Of a DNA stretch of 64,000 nucleotides, positions 2,024 through 10,014 are shown one piece after another. Below the pieces are notes generated by a model that was given only the letters and a program-made list of their open reading frames with translations, did no database searches and was not told the origin of the DNA. A program made the position numbers and the translations under genes. Source of the DNA: Arcobacter sp. (GTDB taxonomy: Bacteria; Campylobacterota; Campylobacteria; Campylobacterales; Arcobacteraceae); the NCBI GenBank assembly GCA_002869565.1, contig PKUJ01000011.1:62001-126000 (forward strand), written 5' to 3'. Within the stretch, counting starts at the first letter, position 1. Every line of letters starts with the position of its first letter.

Positions 2024-3106
2024 TTGATTTCATCTGCTTTAAAAGCATTAAAAGCGAACCGTTTAAAAACTACTTTAATATATTTAAGTCTAATATTTTC
2101 TATTACTTCAATATTTTTAATTTCTTCTATTTCAAATGGTATTATTAGTATGTATTCATCTATGTTAAAAAGTGATGGAGACATAATTATTACTCAAGCA
2201 AAAATATCTGATACATTTTTTTCAAATGTAGATATTAATTTAATTGAAAAAATCAATAAATTATCCAATATAAAAGACTCTTCAGCAATTATTGTAGGAG
2301 CTTCACCTGTTGAAAAGCTTCCAATTGTTGCAGTTTATGGAGTAACTAAAAATAGATTTACAAACTATAAACTAGTAAAAAATTCATACCCAAAAGAAAA
2401 TGAAGTATTAGTTGGACAATCAATTTATGAACAACTTGAAAATAAAAACTCTATTGAAATAGCAAATAAAACTTTTAAAATATCAGGAGTATTTGAAAGC
2501 TCAATTGGTTTTGAAAATGGTGGAGTTGTTTTAAATATAAAAGAAGCTGGTGAAATTTTTAATAAAAGTGCTTCTATGATTATGGTAAATAGCAAAATAG
2601 ACACAGATATTGAAAATCTAGTAAAAGAAATTAGCACTTTAAGCTCAAAAATAGAAGTAAAATCTACAGATAGTTTTGTTGATAACTATAACAAATTTAA
2701 AATTATTCAAACCTCATCAAATGCCATTTCTTTTATTGCTTTTGCCATGGGATTATTGGGAATTGTAAGTATCATGAGTATTACTATAAATCAAAGAAAA
2801 AGTGAATTTGGAATTAAAAGAGCTATTGGAATTCCAATGAAAAGAATAGTTTTTCAAATTATGAGTGAAAGTTTTATTCTTGGTTTCTTTTCTTTTATCT
2901 CTGCTTTTATTTTATCCCATGTGGTTTTATATTTTATAAAAAACTCATCACAACTTCAAGGTTATGTAAATGGAGAAATATCAACAAACTTAGCTATATA
3001 TGTTTTTCTAACTTCAATTGCAATGGCTATGTTAGGAGCTGTGATTCCAGCACTAAATGCAGCAAAAACTGACCCAGTTATTTTAATCCAAGGAAATAAA
3101 ATATGA
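2024..3106 (+). CDS. ABC transporter permease, FtsX/MacB/LolC type
   Basis: 360-residue permease with one N-terminal membrane helix, a periplasmic MacB-like domain (about residues 45-225) and three C-terminal helices carrying the FtsX signature (QRKSEFGIKRAIG followed by the closing helices and PALNAAKTDPV). Such proteins use a LolD-type ATPase to push lipoproteins, peptides or lipids through periplasmic conformational change rather than to carry solutes. The start is TTG, chosen because AAGGAAAAG precedes it at good spacing and no ATG lies before the first helix. It overlaps the ATPase gene by four bases and heads a nine-gene run. Confidence 0.88.
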   Translation: MISSALKALKANRLKTTLIYLSLIFSITSIFLISSISNGIISMYSSMLKSDGDIIITQAKISDTFFSNVDINLIEKINKLSNIKDSSAIIVGASPVEKLPIVAVYGVTKNRFTNYKLVKNSYPKENEVLVGQSIYEQLENKNSIEIANKTFKISGVFESSIGFENGGVVLNIKEAGEIFNKSASMIMVNSKIDTDIENLVKEISTLSSKIEVKSTDSFVDNYNKFKIIQTSSNAISFIAFAMGLLGIVSIMSITINQRKSEFGIKRAIGIPMKRIVFQIMSESFILGFFSFISAFILSHVVLYFIKNSSQLQGYVNGEISTNLAIYVFLTSIAMAMLGAVIPALNAAKTDPVILIQGNKI

Positions 3107-3723
3107 TAAAAGCACAAAATATATCACACTCTTATTCAAATGATATTGCTTTAAAAAATATTAACTTTGAGATTAAAAAAGGTGAATTTGTAGCAATCGT
3201 AGGTGAAAGTGGAAGTGGTAAATCAACTCTTCTTTCAATACTTTCAACTCTTTTAAAACCTACATCAGGAGAAGTTTATTTTGAAGATACAAATTTTAAA
3301 AATATAAAAGATATTGATAGTTTTAGACAAAAAAATATTGGTTTTATATTCCAATTTCATTATTTGATTAATTACTTAAATGTAAAAGAGAATATTCAAA
3401 TTGCAAATGAAAATGCAACAAAAGAGGAAATAGAAGAATTATTAGAACTTTTAGGAATAAAAAATATCATAGATAAATATCCAAATGAAATTTCAGGAGG
3501 GCAAAGACAAAGAGCTGCTATTGCAAGAGCTCTTATAAACAAGCCCAAAGTAATTTTTGCAGATGAACCAACAGGAAATTTAGATTCAATGAATTCTCAA
3601 AATGTATTTGAGATTCTAAAAAAACTATCAAATAAAGGAACAACTATAATAGTTGCAACACACGATTTGAACTTAGCTTCAAAAACAGATAAAACAATAG
3701 AGGTAAAAGATGGACAACTTTAA
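3103..3723 (+). CDS. ABC transporter ATPase, LolD/MacB type
   Basis: 206-residue ATPase with Walker A GESGSGKS (about residue 34), Q-loop FIFQFHYLI, signature SGGQRQRAAIARAL (about 134), Walker B VIFADEPTGNLD and switch His in VATHD. The LDSMNSQNVFEIL stretch is typical of the LolD/FtsE/MacB group. It partners the permease just upstream (ATGA overlap) and its 3' end overlaps the next gene by 14 bases, so translation of all three is probably coupled. The cargo is unknown; the neighbours suggest a role at the cytoplasmic membrane connected with a heme protein. Confidence 0.92.
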   Translation: MIKAQNISHSYSNDIALKNINFEIKKGEFVAIVGESGSGKSTLLSILSTLLKPTSGEVYFEDTNFKNIKDIDSFRQKNIGFIFQFHYLINYLNVKENIQIANENATKEEIEELLELLGIKNIIDKYPNEISGGQRQRAAIARALINKPKVIFADEPTGNLDSMNSQNVFEILKKLSNKGTTIIVATHDLNLASKTDKTIEVKDGQL

Positions 3724-5272
3724 TACTTTCATTGAGACACATTTTAAAATATCACTAATATTTTTTGGTGTAGGTTTAGTCTTTGGACTTTTTTATTCAA
3801 TAAATTTACTTGGATTCTCAATTGATTCCCAAACACTATTGCCAAGTAATTTAAGATCTATTCATATAAGTTTAATGCTTTATGGTTTTGTACCATTGAT
3901 GCTTTCATATTTACCTTTTTTACTAATAAAAAAGGAAGTTGGAGTTTCAAAAAAAGGACTATATTATTTAAATTTATATACTATTTTTTGGTATATTTTC
4001 TTAGTATTTATGACTAGCTCACTTCTTTTTGGAAATACAAGAGGTTTAGCATTTTATGATTTCCCTTATGAGTTAAATTTTATACTTGCCTTTGCAGGTC
4101 TTTTTTATATTATTGCTTTATATAACTTTATCAAAGAATATGACTTTCATCCAATGTGGGTAAGAGTATGTTTACGTGTGGTAATAATTGCACCTATTAC
4201 CCTCTTAATCTTAATGAATCCTATAATTGGGCAAGTTGAAAGTACCGTTACTGGTCCCCATGGAGATAATACCTTAGGAATGAGTTTAGCTCTTATTCCT
4301 CTATATTATTTAATCATCAAATTATTGAACAAAGAAGAGTTTATAGCAAGATGGAATATCCTATGGATTATTCCTACTCTTTTCTATTTTGCTTCTGTTT
4401 TATACAGAACTTTCTTTGAACCATTAACTTATAATCAAGAGTGGTTTTTACAATACCTTACATTTTTATATGTGCCTTTATTATATAGATGGTACAAAGA
4501 TTCAAATATTGAAAGTTTTGCAAAATTATCACTTCTTATATCAATACTTGCTTTTCTTTTTGTAGATATTCAGGGAAATATTCTTTTTATTCCTGAAATT
4601 AGGTGGGTATTTCATAGAAATGACTTAATAGTTGCCCATGCGCATGTAGCCATGGGAATAGGTGTACTATTTATGGTTTTATGTATGTTTACTTCATATA
4701 TTAGTGATCTTAAAAAAGTATCATTTTATTATCTTTATCTTTTAGGACTAATTGGTATTTTTGTAAGCCTAAGCCTTTCAGGTTTTGTTCAAGCGGGTAT
4801 TTTAAATATGAATATTACAACATTATGGATTTTAAGATCAATCTTTGGAGTAGTTGCAATATCAAGTTTAATCTTTTTTATTCAAAATAAATATACTCTA
4901 AGTGCTTTACAAAAATATAATCTTCTAGGTGTATTAAGTGATGGTTTTGGAGGAATTGGACTTATACTAATGGCAAGCTATATATATCCACTTGTTGGTT
5001 TTTCTTTTACTGGAACTTATGAATATATTGTATTTTCTTTTGTAAGTATGACAGGAATTCTACACTTTATGGCACTAAGATACAAAGAACATGAAACTAT
5101 TCTTACAAATATCACAGTTATTATAAGGGTTTTTGTAAGTTCTGTTTTCTTCGCTCTATTTATGGCTAAAACATTAGGATTAGAAGCCTTACTTATTAGT
5201 GCTTTTGATTTCTCATTTGTACTAGTTTATTTAATCTTTTTCTATCAAAAGGAGTCTTTATGCAAAAATTAA
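3710..5272 (+). CDS. Heme-copper-oxidase-like (CcoN-related) membrane protein, copper ligands apparently lost
   Basis: 520 residues and about 12-14 hydrophobic helices. Three places match CcoN/NorB-type subunit I: helix II with LRSIHISLMLYGF (His52), a helix VI-like GPHGDNTLGMSLALIPLYY (His184), and helix X with IVAHAHVAMGIG (His310, His312), equivalent to the GHVHSGALGW region that binds both hemes in CcoN. The adjacent His-His of helix VII that helps bind CuB is absent (the region reads YRTFFEPLT), and in my alignment the helix VI ligand position is occupied by Asp186 rather than His. It may thus be a heme b protein for electron transfer or sensing, not an oxygen reductase. No CcoO/CcoP-like subunit is next to it. 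Confidence 0.6.
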   Translation: MDNFNTFIETHFKISLIFFGVGLVFGLFYSINLLGFSIDSQTLLPSNLRSIHISLMLYGFVPLMLSYLPFLLIKKEVGVSKKGLYYLNLYTIFWYIFLVFMTSSLLFGNTRGLAFYDFPYELNFILAFAGLFYIIALYNFIKEYDFHPMWVRVCLRVVIIAPITLLILMNPIIGQVESTVTGPHGDNTLGMSLALIPLYYLIIKLLNKEEFIARWNILWIIPTLFYFASVLYRTFFEPLTYNQEWFLQYLTFLYVPLLYRWYKDSNIESFAKLSLLISILAFLFVDIQGNILFIPEIRWVFHRNDLIVAHAHVAMGIGVLFMVLCMFTSYISDLKKVSFYYLYLLGLIGIFVSLSLSGFVQAGILNMNITTLWILRSIFGVVAISSLIFFIQNKYTLSALQKYNLLGVLSDGFGGIGLILMASYIYPLVGFSFTGTYEYIVFSFVSMTGILHFMALRYKEHETILTNITVIIRVFVSSVFFALFMAKTLGLEALLISAFDFSFVLVYLIFFYQKESLCKN

Positions 5273-6255
5273 ATTTTTTAAAAATGTCACTTGGACAATT
5301 AGCTTTAATAATTTTTATATCTTCTGAATTATGTTACTACTTGCTAATTGCACAAACAGGGATTGTAGAATATTTTTCATCTGATATTTTTGCAATTGCA
5401 CCACTTCCAATTGGAGGAGTTATTGGTTCACTTTTAACTTATTTTCTAAAAGTTTCAAATAAAAATAAAATTAGACTTTTTTTAAGTTTACAACTAGGTA
5501 TGAGCTTTTTTTATCCAAACTTATCAAATATAATGCTTTTTCTTTTAGGAATAAGTGTTGGAGCACTAGCTCCACTTATAATAAATGAATTAAAAAAAGC
5601 CTCTCTTATAGACTTAGGATTTGCCCTTGCAATCTCTTATACTATTGGGACATATCTATTTAATTATGATGCTGCTTTAAGAGGTGGATTAGGTATAACT
5701 CTAACAATCATAACTATTATCTCTTCACAATTTTTATCAAAAATAAAAATAAATCAAGAAAGCAACCAAGAGTTTTCACTTTTTGTGATGGTTTTATGGA
5801 TATTTTTAGATGCAGCTTTATTTGAAACTCTATCAAGGGATAGTGTAATTTCTATTTGGAGAGATGGTTATAGTTTTGAAATTGCATTATTCCACATAAT
5901 TGGAGTTGTTGCTGCCTTAACATTCAGCATAAGAAAAAACCAAAAAGAGCTATTTATCATTATATTGTTTGCTCTTAGTTATCTATTTTATTTTTTACAA
6001 GAAGCATTTATTTTATCACTTATTTATCCATTTGTAATTTCATATTACAATGTAGCAATACTTCAAACTATTATAAAAAAGGATTTGAAAATTATTAGTA
6101 TTTACATGATTTTTATAGGCTGGATGGCATCTGGAGCAGGTTTATTTGTTGCTTTAGAGAATTTAATTATATTTGTTCCTAGTATCTTTTTATTAGGACT
6201 TATAAAAGTAATCAATACACAACAAACACAAAACAAGGAGTTAAACTATGCGTAA
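5260..6255 (+). CDS. Multi-pass membrane protein of unknown function (MFS-like topology)
   Basis: 331 residues, nearly all in about ten hydrophobic helices with short basic loops, and no motif I can name with certainty. Loosely MFS-like, with glycine-rich helices such as LLGISVGALAPL and GWMASGAGLF. It overlaps the CcoN-like gene by 13 bases and the YceI gene by 8 bases, so it belongs to the same transcript. AAAGGAG lies ahead of the ATG. A transporter or a membrane partner of the CcoN-like protein are both possible. Confidence 0.6.
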   Translation: MQKLNFLKMSLGQLALIIFISSELCYYLLIAQTGIVEYFSSDIFAIAPLPIGGVIGSLLTYFLKVSNKNKIRLFLSLQLGMSFFYPNLSNIMLFLLGISVGALAPLIINELKKASLIDLGFALAISYTIGTYLFNYDAALRGGLGITLTIITIISSQFLSKIKINQESNQEFSLFVMVLWIFLDAALFETLSRDSVISIWRDGYSFEIALFHIIGVVAALTFSIRKNQKELFIIILFALSYLFYFLQEAFILSLIYPFVISYYNVAILQTIIKKDLKIISIYMIFIGWMASGAGLFVALENLIIFVPSIFLLGLIKVINTQQTQNKELNYA

Positions 6256-6775
6256 ATTAATTTTAGTTGCTTTTCTAAGCATATTTTCTTTTGCAAACAA
6301 TTTAGTATTGCAAGAAGGTGAAATCGTTGCTCACACAGAGATATTTGGGGATAGTAAAATTGATCCAATGACAAAAGTTATAGATTCAAAAATTACTATG
6401 AATGAAAACATTGAATCTATTAAAGGTAATGTAACTATCAATTCTTTATCTCTTGTAAGTGATAATCTAGATAGAGATAAACATATGTATGAAGTGCTAA
6501 ATATTAAGGTTAATCCTACAATTAGTTTCGAATTTAAGTCAATTGAAAAAAATGATTTAGATTATAAAATTAATGGTTATCTAACACTAAATGGGGTAAA
6601 AAAAGAAATCTCTTCGATAACTACTATTGTTGATGATCAAAAGTTATTAAATCTTTCAGGAAATTTTTCTATAAAATTAACTGAATTTAATATGGAGCCA
6701 CCATCATTGTTGTTTCTAACAGTAAGAGACCAAATAGATATAAAATACAATCTATCATACACAAAAGGAAAATAA
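6248..6775 (+). CDS. YceI family periplasmic protein
   Basis: 175 residues starting with a classic signal peptide (cleavage probably after SFANN). The rest matches the YceI lipocalin-like beta barrel, which binds isoprenoid chains: paired strands such as KITMNENIESIKGNVTINSL, the conserved PTISFEFKSIEK and YKINGYLTLNGVKKEI segments, and a C-terminal DQIDIKYNLSY strand. The family binds polyisoprenoids or quinone-like lipids in the periplasm, which suits the neighbouring heme membrane protein. AAGGAG precedes the start. It overlaps the preceding gene, and the next gene starts directly after its stop. Confidence 0.82.
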   Translation: MRKLILVAFLSIFSFANNLVLQEGEIVAHTEIFGDSKIDPMTKVIDSKITMNENIESIKGNVTINSLSLVSDNLDRDKHMYEVLNIKVNPTISFEFKSIEKNDLDYKINGYLTLNGVKKEISSITTIVDDQKLLNLSGNFSIKLTEFNMEPPSLLFLTVRDQIDIKYNLSYTKGK

Positions 6776-7225
6776 ATGATTAAAAAAATCGCACTTCTAA
6801 TAGCCTTCGCAAGCTTATTATTTTCAAATAGTTTTAATGTAAATCAAAACATAAATAGCTTTTCATTAGCTGATCAATTTGACAAAATTCACACAGTTAA
6901 TGGTAATATAAAAACTATTGTCGTTTCATTTGAAAAGGGAACTGGAGCTGATATAAATGAGTTCTTAGATAAAAAACCTGCTGATTTTTTACAAAAAAAT
7001 AATGCCGTGTTTATTGCAAATATTTCAGGAATGCCATCTATTATTACAAAACTATTTGCTTTGCCTAAAATGAAAAAATATAAACACAATATATTACTTA
7101 TTTATGATGAAAAAGACACAAGATTTTTACAAAAAGAGGATAAATCTACTGTATACAAACTTGAAAATGGTGTTATTAAAAGTATCAATTATATAGAAAA
7201 AGAAGATTTAGAAAAAACTTTCTAA
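6776..7225 (+). CDS. Small exported protein, possibly thioredoxin-fold
   Basis: 149 residues with an N-terminal signal peptide (MIKKIALLIAFASLLFSNS). The mature part reads like a redoxin-type alpha/beta fold (FSLADQFDKIHTV near the start, NILLIYDEKDTRFLQKE towards the end), but it has no Cys pair and no recognised catalytic motif. It begins the base after the YceI stop codon. It may be a non-catalytic periplasmic partner of YceI; I cannot assign a function. Confidence 0.6.
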   Translation: MIKKIALLIAFASLLFSNSFNVNQNINSFSLADQFDKIHTVNGNIKTIVVSFEKGTGADINEFLDKKPADFLQKNNAVFIANISGMPSIITKLFALPKMKKYKHNILLIYDEKDTRFLQKEDKSTVYKLENGVIKSINYIEKEDLEKTF

Positions 7226-7227
7226 GA

Positions 7228-7965
7228 ATGAAATTAAATCTTCCTCAAACAGTTGAAGTATTTATTAACCATGTAAACTTGCATGGTTTAAGAATACTTC
7301 ATCTTAGTGATTTACATATAAATAAAAAAATTAAAGAAAAAACTCTCATTGAATTAATAAATACTTGTAATAATTTAGACTATGACTTTGCCGTTATTAC
7401 AGGTGATATTATTGATTGTAAAGTAAAATATATAAAAGAAAAACTTCATATTTTAAATACTTTATCTTCTAAAAAACCCGTCTATTATATTAGTGGGAAT
7501 CATGACCTTGTTTATGGTTTAGAAGAGTTAAAAAAAGAGCTTAGCAATTTTATCTTTATGGATAATATATCTAAAAATATAAATTTTAATAACAACAAAA
7601 TTTGTATTGTAGGTTTAGCAGATAGATTTTCTAAATTCTTTAAAATAAAAAGAGATGAAAAAAAAGTTTTTAATCTTCTAAAAGAGAATAAAGCTACAAT
7701 CTTTATTAGCCATCAACCAAAAGATTATAAACTTGCAGTTAATTCACAAACAGACCTATTTTTGTGTGGACACACTCACGGTGGGCAAATTTTTCCTTTT
7801 CATTTTTTTGTGAGATTGATTCAACCTTTTTTAGCAGGACTTTTTTATAAGAATAAAACTGCGATTTATGTAAATAGAGGTTTAGGAACTTGGGGTATTG
7901 ATTATAGATATAAAGCAGATAGTGAAATTACCATCTTAAAATTAATTTCAAAAAGTGTAGAATAA
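7228..7965 (+). CDS. Metallophosphoesterase (YaeI/LpxH-like calcineurin fold)
   Basis: 245 residues with the full set of calcineurin-type motifs: LHLSDLHI, TGDIID, SGNHD, FISHQP and CGHTHGGQIFPF, i.e. the DxH, GDxxD, GNH(D/E), and GHxH metal ligands. The family hydrolyses phosphodiester or pyrophosphate bonds, often in lipid precursors (UDP-diacylglucosamine or similar). The ATG follows the preceding stop by two bases, so it is co-transcribed. There is no signal peptide; a short hydrophobic N-terminal strand suggests peripheral membrane contact. The precise substrate is unknown. Confidence 0.85.
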   Translation: MKLNLPQTVEVFINHVNLHGLRILHLSDLHINKKIKEKTLIELINTCNNLDYDFAVITGDIIDCKVKYIKEKLHILNTLSSKKPVYYISGNHDLVYGLEELKKELSNFIFMDNISKNINFNNNKICIVGLADRFSKFFKIKRDEKKVFNLLKENKATIFISHQPKDYKLAVNSQTDLFLCGHTHGGQIFPFHFFVRLIQPFLAGLFYKNKTAIYVNRGLGTWGIDYRYKADSEITILKLISKSVE

Positions 7966-7979
7966 GACTGAGGTATAAA

Positions 7980-8648
7980 ATGAAAATTTTAATTATTGAA
8001 GATGATGAAAAAATTATTAACTTTTTGAAAAAAGGACTTGAAGAAGAATCATATACTGTTGATTATTCAAAAAATGGTGATGAAGGTCTATATTTAGCAA
8101 GTGTAAATACCTATGATTTAATTTTACTTGATATTATGATTCCAATTAAAGATGGCATTGAAGTTTGCAAAACACTCAGAGATTCTGATGTTCAAACTCC
8201 AATTATTATGCTTACTGCAAAAGATTCTATTGAAGATAAAATAAAAGGTTTAGATATTGGTGCCAATGACTATTTAGCAAAACCTTTTTCTTTTTCTGAA
8301 TTACTTGCAAGAATAAGAGTGCAATTAAGAACTAAAAGCACCTTTGAGACTACACTAAAACTAGGTGATTTAGAATTAGATTTATTAACAAAAACTGAAA
8401 AAAGAGCAAATGATACTATAACTTTAACTGCAAAAGAGTTTGCTATTTTAGAGTTTTTAATCAAAAATAAAAACAGGGTTTTATCAGAAACAGTTATCAT
8501 GGATTCTTTGAGTAATCTTGATGACTCAAATATGAGTAATATTGTAAATGTATATATTTATAGGCTCAGAAATAAAATAGATAAACCTTACGAAAAGAAA
8601 TTGATTAAGACAGTTAGAGGATTAGGATTTAAAATAAGTGATGACTAA
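7980..8648 (+). CDS. OmpR/PhoB-family response regulator
   Basis: 222 residues. Receiver domain at 1-115 with the acidic pair EDDEK, phospho-acceptor Asp in LILLDIMIP (about residue 51), the Thr of MLTAKD and Lys of YLAKPF. Winged-helix DNA-binding domain at about 125-220 (LTAKEFAILEFL and VNVYIYRLRNKID, ending KTVRGLGFKI). ATG preceded by GAGGTA. It overlaps the kinase gene downstream by several bases, the usual operon form of a two-component pair. It lies 14 bases after the phosphoesterase, so it may also be read from the long upstream operon and control it. Confidence 0.93.
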   Translation: MKILIIEDDEKIINFLKKGLEEESYTVDYSKNGDEGLYLASVNTYDLILLDIMIPIKDGIEVCKTLRDSDVQTPIIMLTAKDSIEDKIKGLDIGANDYLAKPFSFSELLARIRVQLRTKSTFETTLKLGDLELDLLTKTEKRANDTITLTAKEFAILEFLIKNKNRVLSETVIMDSLSNLDDSNMSNIVNVYIYRLRNKIDKPYEKKLIKTVRGLGFKISDD

Positions 8649-10014
8649 TTTATCAATAAAAAAGAAACTTGTAGCCTATGGCTTTACTATACAACTAATA
8701 ATACTAGTTATTCTCTCTTTTTCACTATATAAAGCATTAGAAATTTCTACAATAGATAAAATACAAACAACACTAAGAGTTATTACACTTGATATTGTTA
8801 ATGATATTTTAGAACATAAAAATAATTTGCTTACAAGAGATTTTCATGAAGAAAAAGAGTATAAATATGAACCTTTATACATTAGACTTTTAAGATTTGA
8901 TAAGGATTTTTCAGTAATAAAATCATCAAAGTTTCCTTCTTCTATAAAATTTAATATAGAATATTTGAAAAATTTAGAAAATAATGTTATCACTTTTGAA
9001 AAAAAAGAACCTTATATAATTAGTAGAATAAAAATTCATATTAACTCAGAAGACTATGTATTAGAAGTTGCTACAAATCATGTTTTGGTTGATTCAACTT
9101 TAGAAAATCTTTTATATATATTATTTTTAATTATTCCAATTATGCTTATTTTTTCTACTATTGGTGGTTATTTTTTAGTAAATGAATCTTTTGCTCCAGT
9201 TGAAAGAATTTTAAAAAATTTAAAAAAAATTAATGCATCAGATCTTTCAAAAAGATTGGATATTACAAACAATAATAATGATGAAATAGAATTACTTACA
9301 AAAGAGATAAATTCTCTGCTTACTAGGCTAGAAATCTCTTTTGATAAAATATCTCAATTTAGTAGTGATGCTTCCCATGAACTAAAAACTCCACTTACTA
9401 TAATAAGAGGAGAGATAGAGATTGCATTAAGAAAAGATAGGTCTATAGAAGAGTATAAAGATACTTTAGAGAGTTCTTTAGATGAAGTCTTACTTATTCA
9501 ACAAACAATTGATGATCTTCTTTTCCTCGCTAAATCAAAAGACAATTTAGAAGATATAGAAAAAGAGATTTATCTTGATGAAATAACCTACGAAGCAGGG
9601 AAAGAGCTAGAAAGATTTGCAAAAATCAAAAAAATAGATATAAAATATGATATTAGTGAAGCTCAACAAATTAGTGGTCATTCAAAACTTCTAAAAATTG
9701 CTTTAAAAAATATTATAAAAAATGCAATAAACTTTAGTCATGAAAACTCCTCAATATATTTAAAAAACTATTCAGATAAAGAATATTTTATAATTAGTGT
9801 AGAAGATAAAGGAATTGGTATTCCTAAAAAAGAGCAAGATAATATTTTTGAAAAATTTTATAGAACAGATAAAAGTAGAAATAAAGACTCTGGAGGAACG
9901 GGACTAGGAATGTCAATTTCGAAAAAAATTATTGATATGCATCATTCTGAAATTTCAATAGAAAGTACAGAAGATATAGGAACTACAATATTTTTTAAAT
10001 TTCCAAAAAATTAA
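8641..10014 (+). CDS. Two-component sensor histidine kinase
   Basis: 457 residues from this ATG; a GTG three bases earlier (8638) is an equally possible start. Two membrane helices (about 10-32 and 155-180) bracket a periplasmic sensor of some 120 residues. HAMP follows (about 185-235), then HisKA with SSDASHELKTPLTIIRGE (His near 245) and a HATPase with NAINFS, GIGIPKKEQDNIFEKFYR and SGGTGLGMSISKKI. Its start overlaps the end of the response-regulator gene, so it is the cognate kinase. The signal is unknown; the domain between the helices has no motif I recognise. Confidence 0.92.
   Translation: MTNLSIKKKLVAYGFTIQLIILVILSFSLYKALEISTIDKIQTTLRVITLDIVNDILEHKNNLLTRDFHEEKEYKYEPLYIRLLRFDKDFSVIKSSKFPSSIKFNIEYLKNLENNVITFEKKEPYIISRIKIHINSEDYVLEVATNHVLVDSTLENLLYILFLIIPIMLIFSTIGGYFLVNESFAPVERILKNLKKINASDLSKRLDITNNNNDEIELLTKEINSLLTRLEISFDKISQFSSDASHELKTPLTIIRGEIEIALRKDRSIEEYKDTLESSLDEVLLIQQTIDDLLFLAKSKDNLEDIEKEIYLDEITYEAGKELERFAKIKKIDIKYDISEAQQISGHSKLLKIALKNIIKNAINFSHENSSIYLKNYSDKEYFIISVEDKGIGIPKKEQDNIFEKFYRTDKSRNKDSGGTGLGMSISKKIIDMHHSEISIESTEDIGTTIFFKFPKN

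Follow-up and report, generated by a model that had tools for sequence, protein, structure and literature searches.

Six histidines are taken as the signature of a heme-copper oxidase (HCO), and genes that match the Pfam model COX1 (PF00115) are routinely called oxidase or NO reductase genes. Departures from this signature are described for two systems. The gNOR of Sulfurimonas, Sulfurovum, and Persephonella carries an Asp in its active site (PMC8756737), and in the putative NO dismutases (Nod) one histidine is exchanged for Asn and the catalytic Glu for Gln (PMC3413370). An earlier, sequence-only reading of the locus described here had taken it as established that no HCO can reduce O2 or NO without these metal ligands; given the deviating gNOR and Nod this is overstated, and a changed site alone hence leaves NO chemistry possible.

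A second described system combines a membrane heme protein with a lipocalin. YceI proteins bind isoprenoids, for example ubiquinone-8, and many proteobacteria encode YceI together with a diheme cytochrome b561, even as fusions (PMC9113575). The pair LcoA-BcnA (cytochrome b561 and YceI), which is fused in many alphaproteobacteria, protects membranes against lipid peroxyl radicals, with an effect of LcoA/BcnA seen only in the presence of O2; for LcoA, the proposed task is re-reduction of the BcnA-bound quinone, and PA0423 is named as the bcnA orthologue (PMC9113575).

Fold and ligands of the HCO-like protein

The window, which is the whole analyzed stretch of 64,000 nucleotides from Arcobacter sp., contains an intact open reading frame at positions 3710–5272 (+) with an ATG start. 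It encodes a protein of 520 residues (P0001), herein called the HCO-like protein, with nearest homologues in Halarcobacter (87% identity) and Poseidonibacter (82%). Its match to PF00115 reaches 35.8 bits and is barely over the cut-off of 34.8, with residues 1–393 alone scoring 42.1 bits. A set of 72 homologues with identities down to about 44% was assembled, 65 of which match PF00115 at E ≤ 0.01. No NCBIfam model, ccoN included, matches the protein up to E = 1, and a PDB search with the single sequence gave no match; the profile of the 72 homologues has a sole match in the PDB, namely subunit I of the cbb3 oxidase 6xkw (E 2.9e-4).

An AlphaFold (AF2) model, built from the alignment of the 72 homologues and containing no cofactors, has a mean pLDDT of 89.4 and a pTM of 0.88; confidence is lowest at about residues 170–190 and 300–310, next to the expected heme pocket. 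The predicted topology is a 12-TM HCO core followed by four extra C-terminal TM helices (residues 399–517), which lie outside the structure matches. Foldseek lists cbb3 at the top (3mk7, E 1.8e-6, TM 0.57/0.63), and VIA-align over residues 1–396 returns Z scores of 28.6 (4xyd, cNOR), 28.1 (3o0r, cNOR), and 27.4 (3mk7, cbb3), i.e., a tie between cNOR and cbb3 as the best structural match. Because of this tie, the modeled protein is assigned to the HCO subunit-I fold on its cbb3/NOR side. Comparison with a viral structure library gave no match. Pfam matches of the C-terminal four-TM part to SPP or DnaG were weak and isolated and were discarded, as were those to DUF2871 and other models in single family members.

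The sequence-only reading had described a CcoN-like protein that keeps the heme histidines and appears to lack the CuB site, and it had proposed structure prediction and an alignment of homologues as checks. The AF2 fold with its Z scores and the invariant residues of the alignment both bear this out. His52 in helix II (codon 3863–3865, +) and His310-x-His312 in helix X (codons 4637–4645, +), which that reading had matched to CcoN and NorB, are invariant in 72/72 homologues and align with the heme ligands of CcoN, NorB, and gNOR; the counterpart of His52 in CcoN is His72. The propionate-side His302 is likewise present in 72/72; its counterpart in the alignment is the His that is conserved ahead of helix X. 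Asp186 (codon 4265–4267, +; 72/72) was correctly placed at the position of the helix-VI CuB/FeB histidine, as seen from GDNTLG versus GHNAVG in the genome's own CcoN. The helix-VI signature of cNOR, a His with a Glu at +4, is here D186 followed by G190 at +4. The absence of the His-His pair from helix VII (217–235 in the AF2 model) was also read correctly, with no conserved His found there among the 72 homologues. The His-His columns correspond to Y232/R233 when the protein is aligned with CcoN, NorB, and gNOR together, and to L231/Y232 in CcoN-only alignments. Only Arg233 (codon 4406–4408, +; 72/72) is invariant among these three residues and stands at or next to the His-His position, the register being uncertain by one residue; in either register the metal ligands are missing.

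As helix VII lacks a conserved His, Asp186 occupies the His-VI position, and Arg233 lies at or near His-His, the CuB site is very probably absent, with the CuB histidines replaced throughout the 72 homologues. An HCO fold free of copper is thus held with high confidence. The invariant ligands suggest a content of two hemes, and Asp186 and Arg233 may form a charged pair of presumed geometry that replaces the metal. Further conserved residues, beyond Arg233, are His184 (71/72), Glu244, Tyr226, and His452, and a second site could use His184, Tyr226, and Glu244. The fold as such is known; a literature search that was thin on subscription papers, and is hence weak evidence, found no description of this family or of the copper-free form with the partners described below.

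The gene is under purifying selection and functioning, with a dN/dS of 0.10–0.20 against five relatives; a decaying gene is ruled out by this ratio together with the invariant sites. The same genome encodes an ordinary A-type oxidase, cbb3 (CcoNO), and cNOR (NorCB), all on other contigs. In one genome of the Sulfurospirillum group (G253, 99% complete), which carries the module described below, a whole-genome search with PF00115 revealed no further full-length HCO that passes the Pfam cut-off, be it subunit I of a cbb3, A-type, or NOR enzyme. Hence, the HCO-like protein is independent of cbb3.

The operon and its distribution in Campylobacterota

The HCO-like gene is the third in a run of six genes on the forward strand (2024–7225) that overlap or abut each other with gaps of −4, −14, −13, −8, and 0 bases. 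The run starts with an FtsX/MacB-type ABC permease of 360 residues (2024–3106; FtsX E 4e-19, MacB_PCD E 2e-13) and a LolD-like ABC ATPase of 206 residues (3103–3723; ABC_tran, with LolD as the nearest NCBIfam model). The nearest models and structures of this pair are LolD/MacB, and its scores stay short of the cut-offs curated for lolCE, LolD, and MacB. Downstream of the HCO-like gene lies the membrane protein B (331 residues, 5260–6255), for which no Pfam or NCBIfam match was found. Its AF2 model (pLDDT 94) shows an MFS fold and matches EfpA, a lipid-bound efflux pump, with a Z score of 26; direct homology of B to the HCO-like protein was considered and found no support in a profile comparison. 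The fifth gene encodes a YceI-family periplasmic lipocalin of 175 residues (6248–6775; PF04264 E 2.6e-18), which matches the structures of PA0423 and E. coli YceI, and the sixth a small, probably secreted protein of 149 residues without cysteines (6776–7225), which fits no family in Pfam or the PDB.

The run is continued by variable members, namely a metallophosphoesterase (245 residues, 7228–7965, +; PF00149), found mostly in Arcobacteraceae and Sulfurospirillum-like loci, and a response regulator with a sensor kinase of the CopRS/CzcRS type (7980–10014, +; closest in NCBIfam to the copper/heavy-metal models TIGR01387 and TIGR01386, whose cut-offs are not reached), joined to the run mainly in Arcobacteraceae. 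From ftsX to position 7228 the gaps range from −14 to +2 bases, and those of the two-component pair are +14 and −11. None of the operon genes contains a c-type heme motif (CxxCH), and an open reading frame with CxxCH occurs near the module in only 4 of 58 comparable loci, in agreement with the earlier statement that a CcoO/CcoP partner is lacking. Upstream of the module, positions 29–1927 of the window hold a gene for a Sulfatase-family (LTA-synthase-like) membrane protein; as no homologue of it was found beside the module in any of 88 loci, it is not a module member. A gene for a cytochrome b561 of 219 residues (L168:5265–5921; contig C21:61265–61921) is located immediately outside the window, at 0.1 kb on the upstream side of the gene at position 29.

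Across the 88 loci, the ATPase gene (abc) and B each accompany the HCO-like gene in 85, whereas ftsX does so in 84, yceI in 81, and the small gene in 59, several of the remaining loci for the last ending at contig ends. In L036 and L084, no YceI was detected next to the module. In several lineages the gene order is reshuffled with the genes still linked, B and yceI standing upstream of ftsX in L037, L082, L087–L089, and L106. Among 249 sampled Campylobacterota genomes, one and the same set of 24 carries the permease, the HCO-like protein, and the MFS-fold protein, without a single deviation. Here, the permease was called as an FtsX orthologue at E below 1e-100 and the HCO-like count comprises 24 strong matches, three weaker ones that resemble ordinary CcoN being left out. 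As related genomes are not independent, a chance figure for this overlap is no p-value; the all-or-none pattern spans at least five families. A pattern search with two conserved motifs returned 80 loci, all apparently from Campylobacterota, with divergent relatives elsewhere still possible, and no plasmid copy of the HCO-like gene was found. That the gene belongs to an obligate module is regarded as nearly certain. In one genome, G079, a transposase-like gene (4803–5662) has inserted into the gene for the MFS-fold protein (L038:4061–6035) and interrupts it; the neighboring genes for the HCO-like protein, the permease, and the ATPase are intact.

Proposed function and competing explanations

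The constant co-inheritance with lipid-handling genes suggests a new, non-respiratory job for a respiratory fold. The sequence-only reading had proposed a heme b protein for electron transfer or redox sensing, which is possible; it is, however, unspecific and overlooked the obligate FtsX/LolD–MFS–YceI module. Starting from the computed fold, loss of CuB ligands, and module, the explanation preferred here as a whole, at somewhat below an even chance, is that of a copper-free diheme-b electron-transfer protein within a lipid-handling envelope module. Herein, a low-spin heme b would be held between His52 and His312 and a second heme b by His310. In place of CuB/FeB, Asp186 and probably Arg233 would lie above the second heme, perhaps as a salt bridge, and the protein would not respire O2. 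It would conduct electrons, most likely from menaquinol, across to the periplasmic face of the inner membrane. A lipophilic molecule would be loaded, moved, or presented by the FtsX/LolD-type ABC pair together with the MFS-fold protein, and the YceI lipocalin would ferry it through the periplasm. The HCO-like protein would then keep this YceI-borne molecule, a quinone or an oxidized lipid, reduced, as proposed for LcoA/BcnA. Such a role as reductant is put forward because of the lipid-type partners and the LcoA-BcnA precedent, by which we also infer the direction of electron flow, the menaquinol donor, and the substrate. The lipid/quinone redox role taken by itself is proposed tentatively. The same caution applies to the wider idea of a repurposed HCO fold, in which copper-free diheme electron transfer with an Asp-Arg pair for CuB would serve an ABC/MFS/lipocalin lipid machine.

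Two observations bear on the analogy with LcoA-BcnA. LcoA/BcnA is needed only with O2 and many carriers of the module live at little O2, which counts against an LcoA-like role. The b561 gene near the module fits the lipocalin link, and its proximity implies that b561 may have the HCO-like protein as a companion and not as a substitute. Related b561 genes are also found near the module in other Arcobacteraceae, and at a distance of up to about 7 kb in L043, L044, L045, L048, L061, and L068. A second and more typical YceI gene (163 bits vs 67) is found elsewhere on the same contig (L169:3571–4134, −); it adjoins a gene for a MarR-like regulator and has no b561 gene beside it.

Among the other explanations, a divergent NO-converting enzyme, either a reductase or a dismutase, survives best and is nonetheless unlikely. 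Its chemistry would take place at an unusual metal site, to which Asp186, His184, and perhaps Glu244 contribute, or at the heme alone. The putative NO dismutases and gNOR demonstrate that FeB ligands can change, cNOR is the best structural match in a tie with cbb3, Asp186, His184, Tyr226, and Glu244 are invariant or nearly so, and most members belong to a phylum rich in denitrifiers. However, all three metal histidines are lost here and not one, the own genome and others already possess cNOR or gNOR, and the partners are lipid-handling proteins, with NorC, a cupredoxin, and a c-type cytochrome partner all absent. NosZ co-occurs only weakly, in 11 of the 24 carriers (Fisher p 0.10, uncorrected for phylogeny), and a tie to N2O respiration was rejected on this ground. 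With this weak link and no c-type cytochrome partner, a role in denitrification is without support beyond the fold.

A heme-based sensor of redox state or gas, which passes its signal to the neighboring two-component system or regulates ABC/MFS transport, appears rather improbable. A pentacoordinate heme without CuB could bind gas freely, and a CopRS-type regulator and kinase follow later in the same run in many Arcobacteraceae. These two genes are missing, however, beside most copies of Sulfuricurvum, Sulfurimonas, and Sulfurovum, which keep ftsX, abc, B, and yceI. Their place outside the conserved core thus weakens a sensor role, and the extra part of the protein consists of four TM helices instead of a sensory output domain.

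In a third explanation, the FtsX/ABC pair would extract or export heme, and the HCO-like protein would store heme b or pass it on. The module indeed contains a type VII ABC permease with a small ATPase, comparable to HrtBA, an FtsX-type/ABC pair that extracts or exports heme, and the heme sites are intact. This explanation is judged very unlikely, as ATPase and permease are nearest to the LolD/MacB models and structures, the two buried HCO-type heme sites appear made for tight binding, and the YceI cargo is isoprenoids and not heme (PMC9113575). An ordinary or decaying CcoN isosubunit pairing with CcoO/CcoP encoded elsewhere, to which the C-family-like core and CcoN-like helix VI would point, is largely refuted and hardly credible in view of the dN/dS, the uniformly replaced CuB ligands, the four extra TM helices, the lack of a ccoN match in NCBIfam, and the retention of the gene in G253, where no cbb3 or A-type HCO was found.

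A widespread and constrained family that keeps the heme half of the site and drops the metal half indicates that the HCO fold is viable without the metal, and in genome surveys such genes should not be counted as terminal oxidases or NO reductases. The obligate partners hint at an envelope lipid/quinone system of Campylobacterota whose function is undescribed. The lipid-envelope role, if true, would be a function undescribed for any HCO in the literature found.

Comparison with known systems

Membership in canonical CcoN, cNOR, or gNOR was considered for the HCO-like protein and rejected, since metal ligands or partners are missing in each case. With CcoN of the cbb3 oxidases (C-family) it shares the 12-TM core, the helix-II His, the HxH in helix X, the His before helix X, and GxNxxG at the helix-VI position. 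It differs from CcoN by Asp186/Arg233 in place of the CuB histidines, the four extra TM helices, the lack of CcoO/CcoP, and another operon. With NorB of cNOR it has the heme ligands in common, and the structural match is tied with that of cbb3 (Z 28.6 and 27.4), whereas the FeB site of three His and a Glu and the NorC partner are lacking.

For gNOR, which occurs in the same phylum, the likeness is an Asp in the active-site stretch of helix VI; that this Asp replaces His-VI itself follows from motif spacing (DxxxD vs HxxxE), the MAFFT alignment being one column off. In contrast to the HCO-like protein, gNOR keeps the helix-VII His-His and an adjoining gene for a second subunit (195–201 residues). 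Gene pairs of gNOR-like type are present in genomes of the Sulfurospirillum and Sulfurovum groups (L155:608–2844 and L158:613–2894), with WWGLDLVADG in helix VI of subunit I, HH in helix VII, and a second subunit. A divergent HCO-like protein of another kind, 420 residues long, is encoded in the Sulfurospirillum group (L156:1575–2834, −; L157:1093–2352, −); it has a weak PF00115 match below the cut-off and no NCBIfam match and forms a separate family. Nod is similar in being an HCO fold with altered FeB ligands. It is, however, qNOR-like with a single His-to-Asn and a Glu-to-Gln exchange, whereas all three metal histidines are gone from the HCO-like protein.

The ABC pair of the module resembles the type VII systems LolCDE and MacB in its FtsX-type permease and LolD-like ATPase, and differs from them by falling below their curated cut-offs and by its linkage to an HCO-fold protein. 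In LcoA-BcnA, a membrane b-heme protein is encoded together with a YceI lipocalin; the module, with yceI in 81 of 88 loci, would share this arrangement if the HCO-like protein holds the hemes predicted from its ligands, and its YceI matches the structure of PA0423. The membrane partner of that pair is a cytochrome b561, the fold of which is unrelated to the HCO fold found here, and the accessible part of its description mentions no FtsX/LolD or MFS partners (PMC9113575), which are present in the module. In the preferred explanation, the module would resemble LcoA-BcnA in role and not in ancestry.
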